The notes under the pieces: model-generated | What the model saw: only the letters and a program-made list of their open reading frames with translations | Database searches by the model: none | Told to the model about the DNA's origin: nothing | DNA from: Sphingomonas kaistensis | GTDB lineage: Bacteria; Pseudomonadota; Alphaproteobacteria; Sphingomonadales; Sphingomonadaceae | Length of the DNA stretch: 64,000 bases | Assembly (NCBI RefSeq): GCF_011927725.1 | Contig: NZ_JAATJC010000001.1 | Location: forward strand, 937,001 to 1,001,000 | Direction: 5' to 3' | Position numbers and translations under genes: made by a program | Shown here: positions 11,040 through 29,520 of the stretch, piece by piece | How positions within the stretch are numbered: position 1 is the first letter of the stretch | How the letters are laid out: every line of letters starts with the position of its first letter

Positions 11040-11828
11040 TCAGGCACGACCGGCGAGGATCTCGTTGACGAGCGTGTAGTCCGCCGCCTTGTCGACATCG
11101 ATCGCGGCGGTGGGATCGCTCAGCACGACGCCCTTGATGATGATGCCTAGGCTGCGGCTCAGCCCGCGCGCCGACTGGTGCAGATCGCGTACCCGCAGAA
11201 CCGCGCCGAGGAACAGCGGCAGGCCCATCTGCAACAGGACGCGCCAGCCCTTCTTGCGGTCCTGCTCGACCGCCCGCCACCGCTCGATCCCGATCCGCGC
11301 CTTGGGCGTGCGCAGCGCGAACAGGTTGGCGCCGCTGTAGCGCTCACGCCCGAACCGCAGCCAGGTCCGCTGCGCCTGCGGGAAACGGGTCAGCATGTTC
11401 GACCGGCTGACGAAGCCGACCGACACGTCGCAGCCGGCCGATCCGGCAATGAACTCCTCGACCATCTGCGGGGTCAGCAGGGCATGGTCGGCGGCGGTGA
11501 CCAGCAACGGAAAGCGGGTCGCGGGATCGGCGCAGATCCGCTGCAGGGTCGCGGCGATGGTCTCGTCCGACTGCTCGACCACGATCCGCGGGTCATCGGG
11601 CAGGACTTCTGAAATCCGCTCGATCTGCTGGGTCAGCACCCGGACCTGCGCCACGGCCTCGACCGCCAGGAGCGCGCGGATCGGGCGCAGCAGCATCGGT
11701 TCGCCGAGGATCGGAAGCAGCGGCTTATAGTCCACCTTGAGGCTCTGGGTCAGCGGGTCACCGCCCGGCCGGGCCCCGGCAAGCAGCAGGACGGTCCAGC
11801 CTTCGCCCGCGTCAACGGCCTTGCTCAC
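11040..11828 (-). CDS. MobA-like nucleotidyltransferase
   Basis: About 262 residues. It begins at GTG 11828, whose GTGA overlaps the stop of the upstream CDP-alcohol phosphotransferase by 4 bases; this overlap and the domain boundary decide the start. The nucleotide-binding N-terminus reads VLLLAGARPGGDPLTQ followed by KPLLPILGEPML, the GxxR...KPL arrangement of sugar- or alcohol-phosphate nucleotidyltransferases. A metal-binding Asp is likely in VTAADHALL. By family knowledge it should activate a phosphorylated alcohol or sugar with CTP or another NTP. Pairing with a CDP-alcohol phosphotransferase favours CTP. The substrate is unknown. Confidence 0.85.
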   Translation of the reverse strand: MSKAVDAGEGWTVLLLAGARPGGDPLTQSLKVDYKPLLPILGEPMLLRPIRALLAVEAVAQVRVLTQQIERISEVLPDDPRIVVEQSDETIAATLQRICADPATRFPLLVTAADHALLTPQMVEEFIAGSAGCDVSVGFVSRSNMLTRFPQAQRTWLRFGRERYSGANLFALRTPKARIGIERWRAVEQDRKKGWRVLLQMGLPLFLGAVLRVRDLHQSARGLSRSLGIIIKGVVLSDPTAAIDVDKAADYTLVNEILAGRA

Positions 11829-25667: not shown

Positions 25668-25985
25668 GACATGATCCCCCTGTACTCGGCGGCAGACTGC
25701 AACGCGCCGCCGGGAAAGGAAAGCCCTTCCAGATCAATCCGATGTGGCCCTTCGGAGTTAAGGAACGACGAAGATCAGACGCACCGCCGCCGGGGTCCGC
25801 CAAGAGGCGGAAAGCGGCCGCCTCGGGCTGGGCACCTGCGCATGAAGCGGGGATCGTTCACAAGGGAAGCGGCCAGGATCGGAGCCAATTCACCCAACCG
25901 CACTCTCCTTTGCGTGACGGTGCCCGGTTGACCACGTCCGCAACGGGGGTGCGCCCCACTCATTGCGCAATGGCCTGGCCGGCCT
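25668..25985. other. 318-base intergenic region between divergent genes
   Basis: This stretch separates the S9 peptidase start from a divergent lipoprotein gene. It holds the S9 Shine-Dalgarno and presumably both promoters, but I see no convincing -35/-10 pair. Minor features are a short hairpin (GGAAAGG / CCCTTCC, near 25716-25730) and a GGGGTGCGCCCC palindrome near 25945. I see no tRNA, repeat copy or coding signal in it. Confidence 0.4.
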
Positions 25986-26588
25986 ATGGTCGCGAGGGTG
26001 AGAACATCGCTCCTTCTGCTCCCGCTGATCCTTGCCGGATGCACACACGTGTCGACCCCGGCCACGCCGCAGGACAGCTTCTTCGCGCAACTCAGCGAGA
26101 TGTGCGGCAAGGCTTTCGAGGGGCGGATCGTCAGTCCCGCGGTCAGCGCGGACGCCAGCTTCGCGGGCAAGAAGCTCGTCATGCACGTCAGGGAGTGTTC
26201 AAGCGAGACGCTCCGCATTCCGTTTCATGTCGGAGAGGACCGATCGCGAACCTGGGTGATGACCCGCATCGCCAACGGGCTCCGGCTCAAGCATGATCAC
26301 CGACACGAGGATGGAAGCCCGTCCGAGCAGACCCAGTACGGCGGCGACACGGTGGATCCTGGATCGTCCAACCGCCAGCAGTTCCCGGCAGATGCCTTCT
26401 CTAAGGAGATGTTCGTCCGCGGGAATATCCCGCAGTCGGCGACGAACGTCTGGGCGATGGAGGTCTGGCAGAAAAGGCTTTTCGCCTACGAATTGCGACG
26501 CCCCGGCCGCCATTTTCGGGTCGAGTTCGACCTTGCGCGCCCCATCCCAACACCGCCGCCGCCTTGGGGAGCGGGCCGCCCCCGTTGA
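25986..26588 (+). CDS. Lipoprotein of unknown function
   Basis: The product is 200 residues. A short basic N-terminus and LLLLPLILAGC give a lipoprotein signal (Cys about 19). The mature protein contains three further Cys (EMCGKAF, VRECSSE), a His/Asp-rich segment (LKHDHRHEDGSPSEQ) and a Pro-rich tail. The His/Asp cluster might bind a metal, but no family is recognised. Its position next to a mercury-transport gene segment is suggestive only. A GTG at 25998 is an alternative start. Confidence 0.65.
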   Translation: MVARVRTSLLLLPLILAGCTHVSTPATPQDSFFAQLSEMCGKAFEGRIVSPAVSADASFAGKKLVMHVRECSSETLRIPFHVGEDRSRTWVMTRIANGLRLKHDHRHEDGSPSEQTQYGGDTVDPGSSNRQQFPADAFSKEMFVRGNIPQSATNVWAMEVWQKRLFAYELRRPGRHFRVEFDLARPIPTPPPPWGAGRPR

Positions 26589-26609
26589 TTGAGCAACAAG
26601 CTGTGTGGG

Positions 26610-26639
26610 AATGTCTGCAATGGGTGGAAAGCAGACATT
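26610..26639. repeat. Short palindromic intergenic repeat, copy 1
   Basis: AATGTCTGC at 26610-26618 and GCAGACATT at 26631-26639 form a perfect 9-bp inverted repeat around a 12-base loop (AATGGGTGGAAA). A related element with the same arm and a similar loop lies at 27682-27707. The two bracket the VOC/merT/GDCCxxC segment. Its function is unknown; it may be a repeat-type (REP/MITE-like) element or a terminator-like hairpin. Confidence 0.65.
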
Positions 26640-26642
26640 TCG

Positions 26643-26999
26643 TCAGTTTTGGATGAGGCGAACGAGCGTTCCGTCTAGATCGACCATGTAGGCGATGGTT
26701 TTACCGCTATCTTCTTCGGTTGGCGGATGAAGGCGAGGCCACCCCCAACACTGCTCTGGCAATCCAGCAGCTTTGCAGATTTCGTAGAGTTCTTGCATGT
26801 CATCTAGACGCAGGCAGCAGCTAAAGTTGCCCGTTGCAGGGTCCAGATCCGGATGAGGAAAGAACTCCAGCGTCGAGCCGCCGCGCTTCAGGATCATCCA
26901 CCCGTCGTCACGCCAGCCCTCGTCGAAACCTAGCTTCCGATAGAACTGCGATGTCGCTTCGAAGTCCCGGCTCGGCAGGTTCGGCGTCGCGTGATCCAT
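26643..26999 (-). CDS. VOC (glyoxalase/bleomycin-resistance-like) protein
   Basis: The product is 118 residues with the two-module beta-alpha-beta-beta-beta VOC fold: MDHATPNLPSRDFEATSQFYRKLGF, then FEFFPHP-like strands and the final YMVDLDGTLVRLIQN. It resembles bleomycin-binding proteins more than glyoxalase I. No complete metal-ligand set is obvious, which fits a sequestering rather than catalytic role. An AGGGAGA Shine-Dalgarno precedes the ATG. Base composition is visibly less GC-rich than that of neighbouring genes, suggesting transfer. Confidence 0.85.
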   Translation of the reverse strand: MDHATPNLPSRDFEATSQFYRKLGFDEGWRDDGWMILKRGGSTLEFFPHPDLDPATGNFSCCLRLDDMQELYEICKAAGLPEQCWGWPRLHPPTEEDSGKTIAYMVDLDGTLVRLIQN

Positions 27000-27100
27000 C
27001 TAGCGGTCTCCCTGAGTAGCATAACGCCCGCTCCTCCTTGATCGCAATGGGGGCGACTGTCGACGTTGCTCAAGCCTACCCTGACATCTAGAGCAGCGGC

Positions 27101-27457
27101 ATGAAGTTCTCGGAAACAACTTTCGCTGCGATTGCGGCGGCAACCGGCCTTGGAGCTACAACCGCAGGCGCGGCATGCTGCGTGCTTCCGTTGATGCTCG
27201 CCGGTGTCGGCGTCGGCGCGGGCGCCTTGACGCCGATGGTGCCATTCCATTGGCCACTGTCGGTCATCGCTCTTGTTGCGGTCGCGACTGGATGGTTTCT
27301 TTATCTGCGCCGCCGTCGGGCATGTGCCGTGGGCGTTGATTGCGCGCCTCCATCGAAAACGACGTTTCTGCTTTTGATAGTGGCCTCGCTTCTCGTGGTC
27401 ATTGCAGCGGCGTGGCCGTTCATTGAAGCGCCGCTCACGAAAGTAGTTGGCACATGA
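27101..27457 (+). CDS. merT: MerT-like mercuric transport protein
   Basis: The product is 118 residues with three hydrophobic helices, as in MerT. The first helix contains the adjacent Cys pair GAACCVLPLML (about residues 25-26) that accepts Hg(II). A second Cys pair region lies in RACAVGVDCAPP between helices two and three. MerT carries mercuric ion across the inner membrane, normally to MerA reductase. Here there is no merR, merP or merA in the window. The stop overlaps the next gene as ATGA, so the two genes are coupled. Confidence 0.85.
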   Translation: MKFSETTFAAIAAATGLGATTAGAACCVLPLMLAGVGVGAGALTPMVPFHWPLSVIALVAVATGWFLYLRRRRACAVGVDCAPPSKTTFLLLIVASLLVVIAAAWPFIEAPLTKVVGT

Positions 27458-27681
27458 CTCTTCTAGCATCGACACTCACCTGCCCTGAATGTGGGGGAGC
27501 TTCCACCGACGAGATGCCCACCGACGCTTGTCAGTTTTTCTACGATTGCAAGCATTGCAGCGCCGTCCTTCGCCCACTCAAGGGCGATTGCTGCGTTTAC
27601 TGCTCATACGGTGACGTTCCATGCCCGCCCATACAGGAAGCACGGGAGACCGGGGTTGCAGGCTGCTGCTCACCTTCCTGA
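27454..27681 (+). CDS. GDCCxxC-motif protein
   Basis: The product is 75 residues and very Cys-rich (11 Cys), with the signature LKGDCCVYCSYGDVPCPP at about 43-60 and pairs CPEC and CKHC before it. These resemble zinc- or mercury-binding knuckles. The family is known by its GDCCxxC motif and often travels with mercury-resistance genes, where a metal-binding role is suspected but not proven. It starts inside the merT stop codon, so it is translationally coupled to the transporter. Confidence 0.85.
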   Translation: MTLLASTLTCPECGGASTDEMPTDACQFFYDCKHCSAVLRPLKGDCCVYCSYGDVPCPPIQEARETGVAGCCSPS

Positions 27682-27707
27682 TGTCCGCTTCGGGTCGTAA
27701 GCAGACA
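27682..27707. repeat. Short palindromic intergenic repeat, copy 2
   Basis: TGTCCGC (27682-27688) and GCAGACA (27701-27707) form a 7-bp stem with one G-T type mismatch, around a 12-base loop (TTCGGGTCGTAA). Arm spacing, the GCAGACA arm and the GGGTxG loop core match copy 1 at 26610-26639. It lies immediately after the GDCCxxC stop. Confidence 0.55.
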
Positions 27708-27732
27708 CTCGCGACCGCCCCTTGGCCACCAT

Positions 27733-29520
27733 TCAAAGCGGTGCGCATTGCTCCTCGAGCCACGCGCGCTCCTCGGCGCCCAGCCCCGGCCCGATCCGTC
27801 GCACCACTTCCGCGTGATAGTCGTTCAACCACTGGACTTCGCGGTCGCTGAGCAGCGCGCGATCGATCAGGCGGCGGTCGATCGGGGCGAAGGTCAGCGT
27901 TTCGAAGCCGAGCAGTTCCTTGTCGGCGCCCGCCACCTCGACCGGCACCACCAGCACCAGATTCTCGATCCGGATGCCGTATTCGCCTTCCTTGTAATAG
28001 CCGGGCTCGTTGGACAGGATCATGCCCGCCTGCAGCGGTTCGTCGCCGCCGGCATAGGCACCGCCGACCGGCGCGATCCGCTGCGGGCCTTCGTGGACCG
28101 ACAGGAAGCTGCCGACGCCGTGGCCGGTGCCATGCGCGTAATCGAGGCCCGCTTCCCACAACGGCCGCCGGGCGAAGCTGTCGAGCTGGCCGCCCCGCGT
28201 GCCCTTCGGGAACACCGCCGAGTCGATCGCGATATGGCCCTGCAGCACGCGGGTGAAGCGGTCGCGCATTTCCGGCGTCGGCTCGCCCACCGCGACGGTG
28301 CGGGTGATGTCGGTGGTGCCGTCCTCATACTGCCCGCCCGAATCGATCAGGTAGAGCGAGCCCGGCGCGAACGGGACGTTGCTCTTCTCGGTCGAATGAT
28401 AGTGCGGGCTGGCGGCGTTGGCGCCGAACGCCGAGATGCTGTCGAACGACAGGTCCTTGAGCGTCGGATCCTCGCGGCGGATTTCCTCCAGCCGGGCCGA
28501 GGCCTTGAGTTCGTCGAGCTCACCCTGGTGCGCGTCGACCCATTTCAGGAACTTCACCATCACCGCGCCGTCGCGGGTCTGGGCGGCGCGGTGGCCGGCG
28601 ACCTCGGTTTCGTTCTTGGTCGCGCGGGGCAGGACGGTCGGATCGCGCAGGGCGATGATGGTGGCGCCGGCCTTTTCCAGCGCTTCGCCGATCGCTGCCA
28701 CCGACCGCTCGGGATCGACCGCCACGGTCTTGCCGCCAAGCTCGCCCAGCTTCGCCTCGAACTCCGCCCGCTCGTGCAGCCGGACCCCGTTGCCGAGGTG
28801 CTGGCGAAGCTCGGCGGTGACCTTCTCGCCCTCGACGAACAGGTCTGCGGTGCCGTCGCCGTGGACCAGCGCGAAGGCGAGGCCGACCGGCGTGCGCGAC
28901 ACGTCGGACCCGCGCAGGTTGAAGGTCCAGGCGATCGAATCGAGCGCGGCCAGCACCGCTGCGTCGGCGCCCTGTTCGCCCAGCCAGTCGGCCACCGCCT
29001 GGCGCTTGTCGGCGCTCGACCGCCCCGCCAGCCGCTCGGGATGCACGACCAGCGCCGCCTTGCTGCGTTCGGGCCGGTCGCTCCACACCGCGTCAATCGG
29101 ATTGGTCGTCACCGCCACCAGCTCGGCACCCTTGGCCGCCAGCGCCTCGCGGGTGCGGGCGACCCAGTCCCGGCGGTGCAGCCACGGGTCGTAGCCGATC
29201 CGCGCGCCTGCCGGGGCATGAGCCTTGAGCCAGTCGGTCACATTGCTTTCGGGCACCGATTCGAACGACCAGTCCGCCCCGTCGACCTGCTGGCGCACCT
29301 GCAAGGTGTAGCGTCCGTCGGTGAAGGTCGCCGCCTTGTCGGCGAGCACCGCAGCCGATCCGGCCGACCCCTCGAACCCGGTCAGCCAGGCCAAACGGTG
29401 CGCATAGCTGCCGACATATTCGCTCATATGCTCGTCGGTCAGCGGCACGACGAACCCGTCGAGGCCCTGGGCGGCGAGCTGCTGGCGGAGGGCGGCGAGG
29501 CGGTCTGAATGGTTGCTCAT
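27733..29520 (-). CDS. pepP: Aminopeptidase P family protein (Xaa-Pro aminopeptidase)
   Basis: The product is 595 residues, the long three-domain form (creatinase-N, middle and pita-bread catalytic domain) found in eukaryotic-type aminopeptidase P rather than the ~440-residue E. coli PepP. The dimetal ligands are visible: Asp in YLIDSGGQYEDGTTDITRTV, His in HGTGHGVGSFLSVHEGP, Glu in LSNEPGYY and Glu in GIRIENLVLV. It removes N-terminal residues ahead of proline. Its gene is divergent from oligopeptidase B, so two peptidases may share this region. Confidence 0.94.
   Translation of the reverse strand: MSNHSDRLAALRQQLAAQGLDGFVVPLTDEHMSEYVGSYAHRLAWLTGFEGSAGSAAVLADKAATFTDGRYTLQVRQQVDGADWSFESVPESNVTDWLKAHAPAGARIGYDPWLHRRDWVARTREALAAKGAELVAVTTNPIDAVWSDRPERSKAALVVHPERLAGRSSADKRQAVADWLGEQGADAAVLAALDSIAWTFNLRGSDVSRTPVGLAFALVHGDGTADLFVEGEKVTAELRQHLGNGVRLHERAEFEAKLGELGGKTVAVDPERSVAAIGEALEKAGATIIALRDPTVLPRATKNETEVAGHRAAQTRDGAVMVKFLKWVDAHQGELDELKASARLEEIRREDPTLKDLSFDSISAFGANAASPHYHSTEKSNVPFAPGSLYLIDSGGQYEDGTTDITRTVAVGEPTPEMRDRFTRVLQGHIAIDSAVFPKGTRGGQLDSFARRPLWEAGLDYAHGTGHGVGSFLSVHEGPQRIAPVGGAYAGGDEPLQAGMILSNEPGYYKEGEYGIRIENLVLVVPVEVAGADKELLGFETLTFAPIDRRLIDRALLSDREVQWLNDYHAEVVRRIGPGLGAEERAWLEEQCAPL

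Follow-up and report, generated by a model that had tools for sequence, protein, structure and literature searches.

The 1,096-bp segment bounded by two palindromes in the Sphingomonas kaistensis window analysed here (a stretch of 64,000 nucleotides, positions 937001-1001000 of C1 in the 2.85-Mb single-contig genome G000) is very probably a gene cassette of an integron-like Sphingomonas system, of which the recombinase would most likely be a small tyrosine recombinase, termed the mini-integrase. The initial annotation of the window had noted a less GC-rich segment bracketed by a palindromic repeat that might have mobilised it; this observation is correct, and the case was understated. It is the repeat system, rather than the cargo, that is the unusual part. 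The features are listed in Table 1.

Table 1. Features of the cassette locus and of related loci (plain numbers are window positions; other locations carry their contig or locus handle)
Feature	Location	Strand	Size and basis
Left-hand flanking gene, outside cassette	25986..26588	+	200 aa; no family
Mobile gene cassette with both terminal sites	26611..27706	+	segment common to several species
Left recombination site (predicted)	26612..26637	+	26 bp, TGTCTGCAATGGGTGGAAAGCAGACA; outer half would be resident, inner half cassette
Bleomycin-binding-protein (BLMT/Ble-type VOC) relative	26643..26999	-	118 aa; NCBIfam, PDB, plasmid BLMT likeness
Divergent intergenic stretch ble/merT	27000..27100	.	gene coordinates
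MerT-like membrane protein	27101..27457	+	118 aa; NF010314, PF02411 weak matches
GDCCVxC-domain small Cys-rich protein	27454..27681	+	75 aa; NF041374 103.9 bits, cut-off 40
Right recombination site (predicted)	27682..27707	+	26 bp, TGTCCGCTTCGGGTCGTAAGCAGACA; inner half would be cassette, outer half resident
M24 aminopeptidase, right-hand flank, outside cassette	27733..29520	-	PF00557/PF16189/PF16188
Candidate tyrosine recombinase (mini-integrase)	G000 C1:428641-429261		207 aa
Second mer set	L188:9697-13630 = G000:C1:1419696-1423629
Second set, merT	L188:11350-11802
Second set, GDCCVxC gene	L188:~11126-11410
Second set, MerR-like gene	L188:11835-12242
Second set, MerA-like gene	L188:12290-13630
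Adjacent ble/merT relatives	G012:C1:241758-242687
Adjacent ble/merT relatives	G019:C1:805968-806929
Adjacent ble/merT relatives	G057:C1:1809621-1810581
Adjacent ble/merT relatives	G006:C2:85587-86630
Site doublet	L029:6169-6230
Site doublet	L029:12881-12943
Site doublet	L037:6198-6259
Site doublet	L036:9987-10049

The segment contains, in order, a 26-bp palindrome, a ble-type VOC gene, merT, a GDCCVxC gene and a second palindrome. Both palindromes are imperfect and lie in direct orientation to one another; with one base added at each end, the site is 28 bp long and has an 11-6-11 layout. They were the only matches in the 64-kb window (≤3 mismatches) to a pattern derived from the two copies themselves, and 100 shuffles gave 0; two such palindromes per 64 kb is far beyond chance. 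The whole G000 genome had 20 copies and the reversed pattern none, a comparison that is independent of the derivation of the pattern from the window copies. The start codon (ATG) of the GDCCVxC gene overlaps the stop of merT and its own stop codon abuts the right site, while the divergent stretch between ble and merT presumably holds the promoters of both. The lower GC was confirmed: the segment had a GC content of 0.586, compared with 0.680 for the window, below every other 1,096-bp stretch sampled at 100-bp steps, and GC3 was 0.59-0.66 in its genes and 0.79-0.89 in four neighbouring genes. The left-hand flanking gene had no Pfam or NCBIfam match (E ≤ 0.01), and an Rfam scan of window positions 25900-28300 gave nothing at the gathering threshold. 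The M24 aminopeptidase gene on the right was present in 68 of the 71 genomes of the genus (E ≤ 1e-100) and served as the anchor for locating the empty site.

The 1,096-bp unit occurred in three genomes, each of a different species (G000, G016, and G020), at loci unrelated to one another. Window positions 26611-27706 were 99.54% identical to the G016 copy and 99.36% identical to the G020 copy over 1,096 bp, at non-orthologous loci. When 6 kb of the window was compared by blastn with these two loci, with approximately 0.8 kb or more on each side, a single match per locus was obtained that ended at the outer edges of the palindromes, and no match was detected outside them (E ≤ 1e-5). The interior differed at 2 positions in G016 and 1 in G020, the remaining differences lying within the palindromes; the MerT and VOC proteins were 99% and 100% identical, respectively. 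The M24 protein, which in these genomes sits elsewhere than the cassette copy, was 88% (G016) and 81% (G020) identical. At the level of sequence, these alignments establish that the unit is mobile and where its exact boundaries lie. Conservation of the genes in place was not found, the cassette being at different loci in G016 and G020, and the earlier suggestion that the repeats had moved the segment is strongly supported, to the base. Four more site-ended segments were present at non-orthologous loci, two in the G016/G020 comparison, one within G016 and one within G013, and all five mobile cassettes lay between direct sites. The two ends of a 1,049-bp shared segment lay 47-49 bp and about 450 bp from a site. 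A 3.3-kb stretch (L034:2643-5936 in G000, L156:1-3294 in G020) was 99.9% identical in two genomes with M24 proteins of 81% identity and had no bounding sites; it is probably a separate recent transfer.

The differences within the palindromes were not evenly placed. In the window cassette, each site differed only in its outer half (the left half of the left site, the right half of the right one), with no change in the inner halves or in the central GGGT. Seven pairwise comparisons of five cassettes, three of them of one and the same cassette, gave 33 outer-half and 4 inner-half differences in the sites, and 3 of the inner-half ones came from the most diverged pair (G016/G020, 93.5%). This concentration places the crossover zone in the central GGGT; with a crossover there, the outer halves would be the two halves of a pre-existing site. 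Joined together, they matched a lone palindrome beside the M24 gene of G020 at 27 of 28 bases; the G020 flank beyond this palindrome was not common with the left flank of the window. A comparison with relatives for an empty site holding one repeat had been proposed in the initial annotation; its outcome was positive, with one palindrome at the corresponding place in G020. Among the 30 M24 loci examined, G020 had one site, G000 two with the cassette between them, and G045 five, two of them degenerate and the others at 26, 336, and 925 bp from the gene end; in each of these three genomes they start 6-26 bp from the M24 gene end. No site was near the gene at the other 27 loci (26 without G068, which had three opposite-direction sites more than 500 bp away). 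The G045 locus (L041) carries, 26-925 bp downstream of the M24 gene, a site array with other DNA between the sites at the same chromosomal place. Judged from these comparisons, the segment almost certainly moved by a central crossover at a resident palindromic site.

Genome searches showed that the site (≤3 mismatches) was present in 60 of the 71 genomes of the genus, the reversed control giving 0-2 per genome; among 16 genomes from elsewhere in the order, three had copies (1, 1, and 13). Conservation around 326 sites, scanned over 60 bases to each side, dropped to background approximately 4 bases beyond the 26-mer, about 34 bases being covered. Neighbouring pairs 150-2,500 bp apart in the fetched stretches were direct in 191 of 217 cases, diverging in 21 and converging in 5; since the stretches were picked for having sites, these pair counts and the unit counts below do not describe whole genomes. 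G000 alone had 7 direct, 1 diverging and 3 converging pairs (4 of 11 inverted), with converging neighbours at L030:3735-5824 and L034:2478-3920, and inverted pairs away from the hub are not explained by a simple direct-repeat cassette model. In a second count, made on slightly different loci by the gap between sites, 188 direct units had a median length of 541.5 bp, and 166 of them had an open frame by simple scoring (57 on the site strand, 109 on the opposite strand). The 126 unit proteins scanned (123 from these frames and the three of the window) matched 74 Pfam families; among the 25 families listed by members, only alpha/beta hydrolase had more than one (4). Long one-direction arrays were also seen, e.g. 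G013:C2:150749-159884, in a genome without a class-A or class-B integrase, as defined below (E ≤ 1e-10), and without a serine recombinase (E ≤ 1e-8).

Two kinds of half-site appeared to be present. At position 14 (counted from 0), sites followed by a cassette had G in 130 cases and C in 45, and sites with none within 1.5 kb had G in 36 and C in 77 (p ~1e-12, a value made optimistic by related, non-independent sites); with a 2.5-kb limit the G/C counts were 144/52 and 16/46. We read this bias as a distinction between cassette-type and resident-type half-sites. Mutual complementarity of the circle halves was weak and not significant (0.678, compared with 0.663 when permuted; p = 0.053). Doublets of 62-63 bp, with two sites approximately 10 bp apart, were also observed; the first site of doublets had C in 27 cases and G in 2, and in the four doublets of Table 1 the first site had C and the second G. 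They are perhaps an empty cassette or a composite site.

The mini-integrase gene of G000 lies 123 bp from a site. Relatives were divided into class A (63-81%; 20 loci in 18 genomes, G000 included) and class B (54-60%; 20 loci), which formed separate clades with support of 100/99. At class-A loci, the nearest sites were 1-1,158 bp from the gene and occurred on both sides in 17 of 20 loci; the nearest site pointed outward on the left at all 19 loci with a left-hand site and on the right at all 18 with a right-hand site, irrespective of the gene strand. Within 10 kb, 89 of 98 left-hand and 85 of 86 right-hand sites pointed outward, and 8 of the 9 left-hand exceptions came from one locus (L174 in G059), where 8 of 11 left sites pointed inward. 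As sequence features, the arrays and the central position of the integrase in them are thereby established. At 17 of the 20 class-B loci there was no site within 1 kb of the gene; two of the others (G047) lay between inward-pointing sites and one (G014) between direct sites. In several genomes, mer genes lie near a class-B integrase (see below). The 18 of 71 genomes in which class A was found all had sites, and the 11 genomes lacking sites had no class A. Forty-two site-bearing genomes, including G013 with 70 sites, had no intact class-A gene (matches at E ≤ 1e-10), so that the enzyme is not always at hand; these may represent remnants, partial genomes or genomes fed from outside. Fragments of such integrases were present in G007, G009, and G019, among others.

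In the eight class-A proteins aligned, R58, H155, R158, H181, and Y190 were invariant; we take these to be the catalytic R, HxxR, H, and Y of tyrosine recombinases. A structure model of the Sphingomonas member at L205 (mean pLDDT 82) gave XerA, XerH, and Cre as best matches, and from its length and this model the mini-integrase would lack most of the Xer/Cre N-terminal core-binding domain. The class-A protein scanned scored 51.6 bits (cut-off 220) with NF040815, named 'site-specific tyrosine recombinase/integron integrase', and had no match to the integron integrase models TIGR02249/NF011946 (E ≤ 0.01); the class-B protein scanned scored 26 bits (cut-off 265) with TIGR02249. Weak matches below cut-off were obtained with NF007371 and NF007370 (FimB/FimE type). 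The position and orientation data point to the class-A mini-integrase as the likely mover of the cassettes. A serine recombinase as the necessary mover was rejected, G013 (70 sites) and G019 (46 sites) having no PF00239 match (E ≤ 1e-8). A serine recombinase gene (G000:C1:419015-419467, in L030; open frame of 593 aa) lies between two distant sites of the array region in G000.

In the mechanism proposed, the unit would travel as a circle bearing one 26-28-bp palindromic site, and the circle would insert by site-specific recombination at the GGGT centre of a site already resident at another chromosomal place. Both junctions so formed would combine a resident half with a cassette half, and the unit would be left between two direct sites. 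The recombinase would most likely be the ~200-residue mini-integrase of G000, relatives of which are central to outward-pointing cassette arrays in other Sphingomonas; with the window cassette 0.53 Mb away, its action would have been in trans. What we infer from the data above is that the intermediate is circular, which enzyme is the recombinase, and what selects for the cargo.

By homology, the product of the VOC gene is related to the BLMT/Tn5 bleomycin-binding protein: it was approximately 62% identical to plasmid BLMT copies, matched the bleomycin resistance protein 1ewj in PDB at E 3.6e-43, and scored 175.8 bits with NCBIfam ble_BLMT (curated cut-off 210, not reached) and 160.5 bits with Ble-MBL (cut-off 250). 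The MerT-like protein missed both curated cut-offs, with 34.2 bits for NF010314 (cut-off 150) and 25 for PF02411 (cut-off 32.9). Its translation has a Cys pair at 26-27 and Cys at 75 and 81, which correspond to the first-helix pair and the two loop Cys of MerT (Tn501 MerT positions). The GDCCVxC protein is a clear family member of the Cys form, with no in-frame TGA ahead of the stop. The whole cassette was absent from plasmids (0 of 72,556 records with ≥80% coverage), and the best 10 of 2,021 plasmid matches were to the ble gene alone. Relatives of ble and merT, 42-82% identical to those of the window, are adjacent in other genomes too (Table 1), and the ble-mer link may therefore be older than the window cassette.

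Stand-alone metal handling by MerT and a Cys-rich partner, on a repeat-mobilised segment lacking merA and merR, had been the main point of the initial annotation. This is a claim on the cargo and is compatible with a cassette; the four expected Cys of the MerT-like protein and its coupled Cys-rich partner speak for it, and the mobilisation was confirmed. The absence of merA and merR holds at this place; the genome, however, has a second merT and GDCCVxC pair at 1.42 Mb, together with a MerR-like and a MerA-like gene and beside a class-B mini-integrase, so 'stand-alone' is not established. The MerA-like protein of this set, a flavoprotein reductase, scored 315.7 bits with a curated MerA cut-off of 454.45; TIGR02053 was used, a search by PF07992 being too broad, and none of the 5 hits in G000 reached its cut-off. 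A class-B integrase within 4 kb of a merT relative was also observed in G020, G012, and G006. With the VOC gene being a bleomycin-binding-protein relative and the pair recurring with a MerR-like gene and a reductase, a stand-alone mercury system as the main point is unsupported, and we regard this reading as doubtful. Within such sets, the merT/GDCCVxC pair would take up and retain a thiophilic metal ion, probably Hg(II), and the pair in the cassette may borrow the regulator and reductase of the 1.42-Mb locus.

As to the mover, host XerC/XerD could act on the cassettes as they do on Acinetobacter plasmid dif modules, the mini-integrase being frequent cargo. The dif-like 11-6-11 layout, the presence of at least one tyrosine recombinase in all 71 genomes of the genus and the inversion, known from dif modules, of some neighbours (26 of 217 pairs; 4 of 11 in G000) agree with this, as does G013, which has no serine recombinase (E ≤ 1e-8) and, with its 70 sites, only 3 tyrosine recombinases (E ≤ 1e-12), two of them strong and about Xer length (306 and 330 aa). 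The site sequence, however, is unlike the dif consensus; the arrays extend to both sides from the mini-integrase at their centre, and 11 genomes are site-free although Xer is expected everywhere. Moreover, 191 of 217 pairs and all five mobile cassettes are direct, whereas dif modules are inverse (PMC13141974). We consider movement by XerC/XerD unlikely. Passively spread REP- or MITE-like repeats, with RecA recombination on transferred DNA swapping the segment between them, would also explain why short hairpins number in the tens in a genome and why the crossover falls inside the repeat; 26 bp, however, is very short for RecA, the arrays are mostly in one direction with ~0.5-kb spacing and flip direction at the integrase, and near-identical cassettes occur at unrelated loci with nothing else in common, which makes this very improbable. 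Still less credible is the reading that the segment belongs to an ordinary integron or CALIN whose attC sites went unrecognised. It would fit the small size and varied cargo of the cassettes, the palindromic sites, the integrase beside the array and the weak NF040815 match with 'integron integrase' in its name, but the class-A integrase had no TIGR02249/NF011946 match (E ≤ 0.01) and the arrays extend both ways. The attC site is ~57-141 nt long, bipartite with R and L boxes, and cut near one end; the ~34 conserved bases with a central crossover do not reach this length, conservation ending ~4 bases beyond the 26-mer (326 sites), although 62-bp doublets do exist.

Mini-integrase relatives are not confined to Sphingomonas. 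A class-A profile scan of named genomes gave at least 586 confirmed relatives, of which 80 were kept, 3 of them from Sphingomonas. At the 76 non-Sphingomonas loci of ≥4 kb, repeats around the gene stood out in three, the other 73 having at most 5, by a fuzzy 24-mer count; the shuffled controls, run over a smaller number of words than the test itself, gave ≤4. Dyella sp. OK004 (L231, 1336-18710) had 19 copies of a palindrome close to that of Sphingomonas, of which 17 shared a direction on one side of the gene and 2 were inverted on the other side; the unclassified proteobacterial MAG B37T1B8 (L213) had 10, and Massilia aurea (L207) 11 in mixed directions, both with palindromes of a different sequence. 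Scanning the 80 loci (3 Sphingomonas) with the Sphingomonas consensus gave 138 matches, compared with 21 for the reversed one; by this consensus the Dyella array is directed towards the integrase, a geometry unlike that in Sphingomonas. With the 11-6-11 rule, L231 and L213 were the top non-Sphingomonas loci, and 4 unoriented copies were counted at L239; the fuzzy 24-mer count added L207. A test for inverted pairs failed at most class-A loci as well and is therefore insensitive.

We conclude that the candidate recombinase and the site are unlike IntI/attC and XerCD/dif. It is reasonably likely that they represent a second natural gene-cassette platform independent of integrons, with a ~200-residue recombinase, a 28-bp palindrome of two half-types, circular, mostly one-gene cassettes and arrays growing outward on both sides, which would be common in Sphingomonas and occur with its own palindromes in other Proteobacteria, e.g. 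Dyella. No description of this cassette system was found in the available portions of the open-licence PMC literature. If the proposal is correct, cassette capture arose more than once, and integron searches would be missing the movement of a large accessory-gene pool that includes resistance-type genes like the ble relative. With a site this short and well defined, the claim can be put to a direct laboratory test.

Integrons are the textbook route by which bacteria collect and shuffle single genes. They likewise have small palindrome-bounded units with very diverse cargo in arrays adjoining a tyrosine recombinase, insertion into a resident site giving chimeric sites, and two kinds of half-site. 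In the Sphingomonas system, by contrast, the recombinase has ~200 aa and falls outside the IntI models, the site has 26-28 bp with a mid-site crossover, arrays extend from the integrase to either side, the chromosome carries many scattered sites, and cassette genes lie on either strand (57 same, 109 opposite). The FimB/FimE invertases are ~200-aa tyrosine recombinases without a full core-binding domain that invert one promoter segment. Their similar size and the weak NF007371/NF007370 matches below cut-off are points of likeness, whereas the Sphingomonas system has many cassettes in arrays that would move between loci. As to the cargo, BLMT/Tn5 Ble and Ble-MBL have the 118-aa VOC fold in common with the window protein (~62% identity to BLMT), which differs in staying below the curated cut-offs and in being encoded by one of three genes of a chromosomal cassette.

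The dif (pdif) modules of Acinetobacter, moved by XerC/XerD, have in common with the cassettes a 28-bp 11-6-11 site, accessory genes between sites and tyrosine recombinase chemistry. The terminal pdif sites of a module are in inverse orientation (PMC13141974); Sphingomonas pairs are mostly direct, as are the window sites. The Sphingomonas system also differs from these modules in its own integrase at the hub, its chromosomal arrays and its site sequence (PMC13141974, PMC6449649). Simple tyrosine recombinases have been divided into Xer, integron-like, IntKX, Rit, TnpA, and other subgroups, and in the available portion of that paper gene-cassette movement is described for the integron-like subgroup only (PMC8138268). 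The mini-integrase has the catalytic fold and residues in common with these subgroups as they appear there (PMC8138268).
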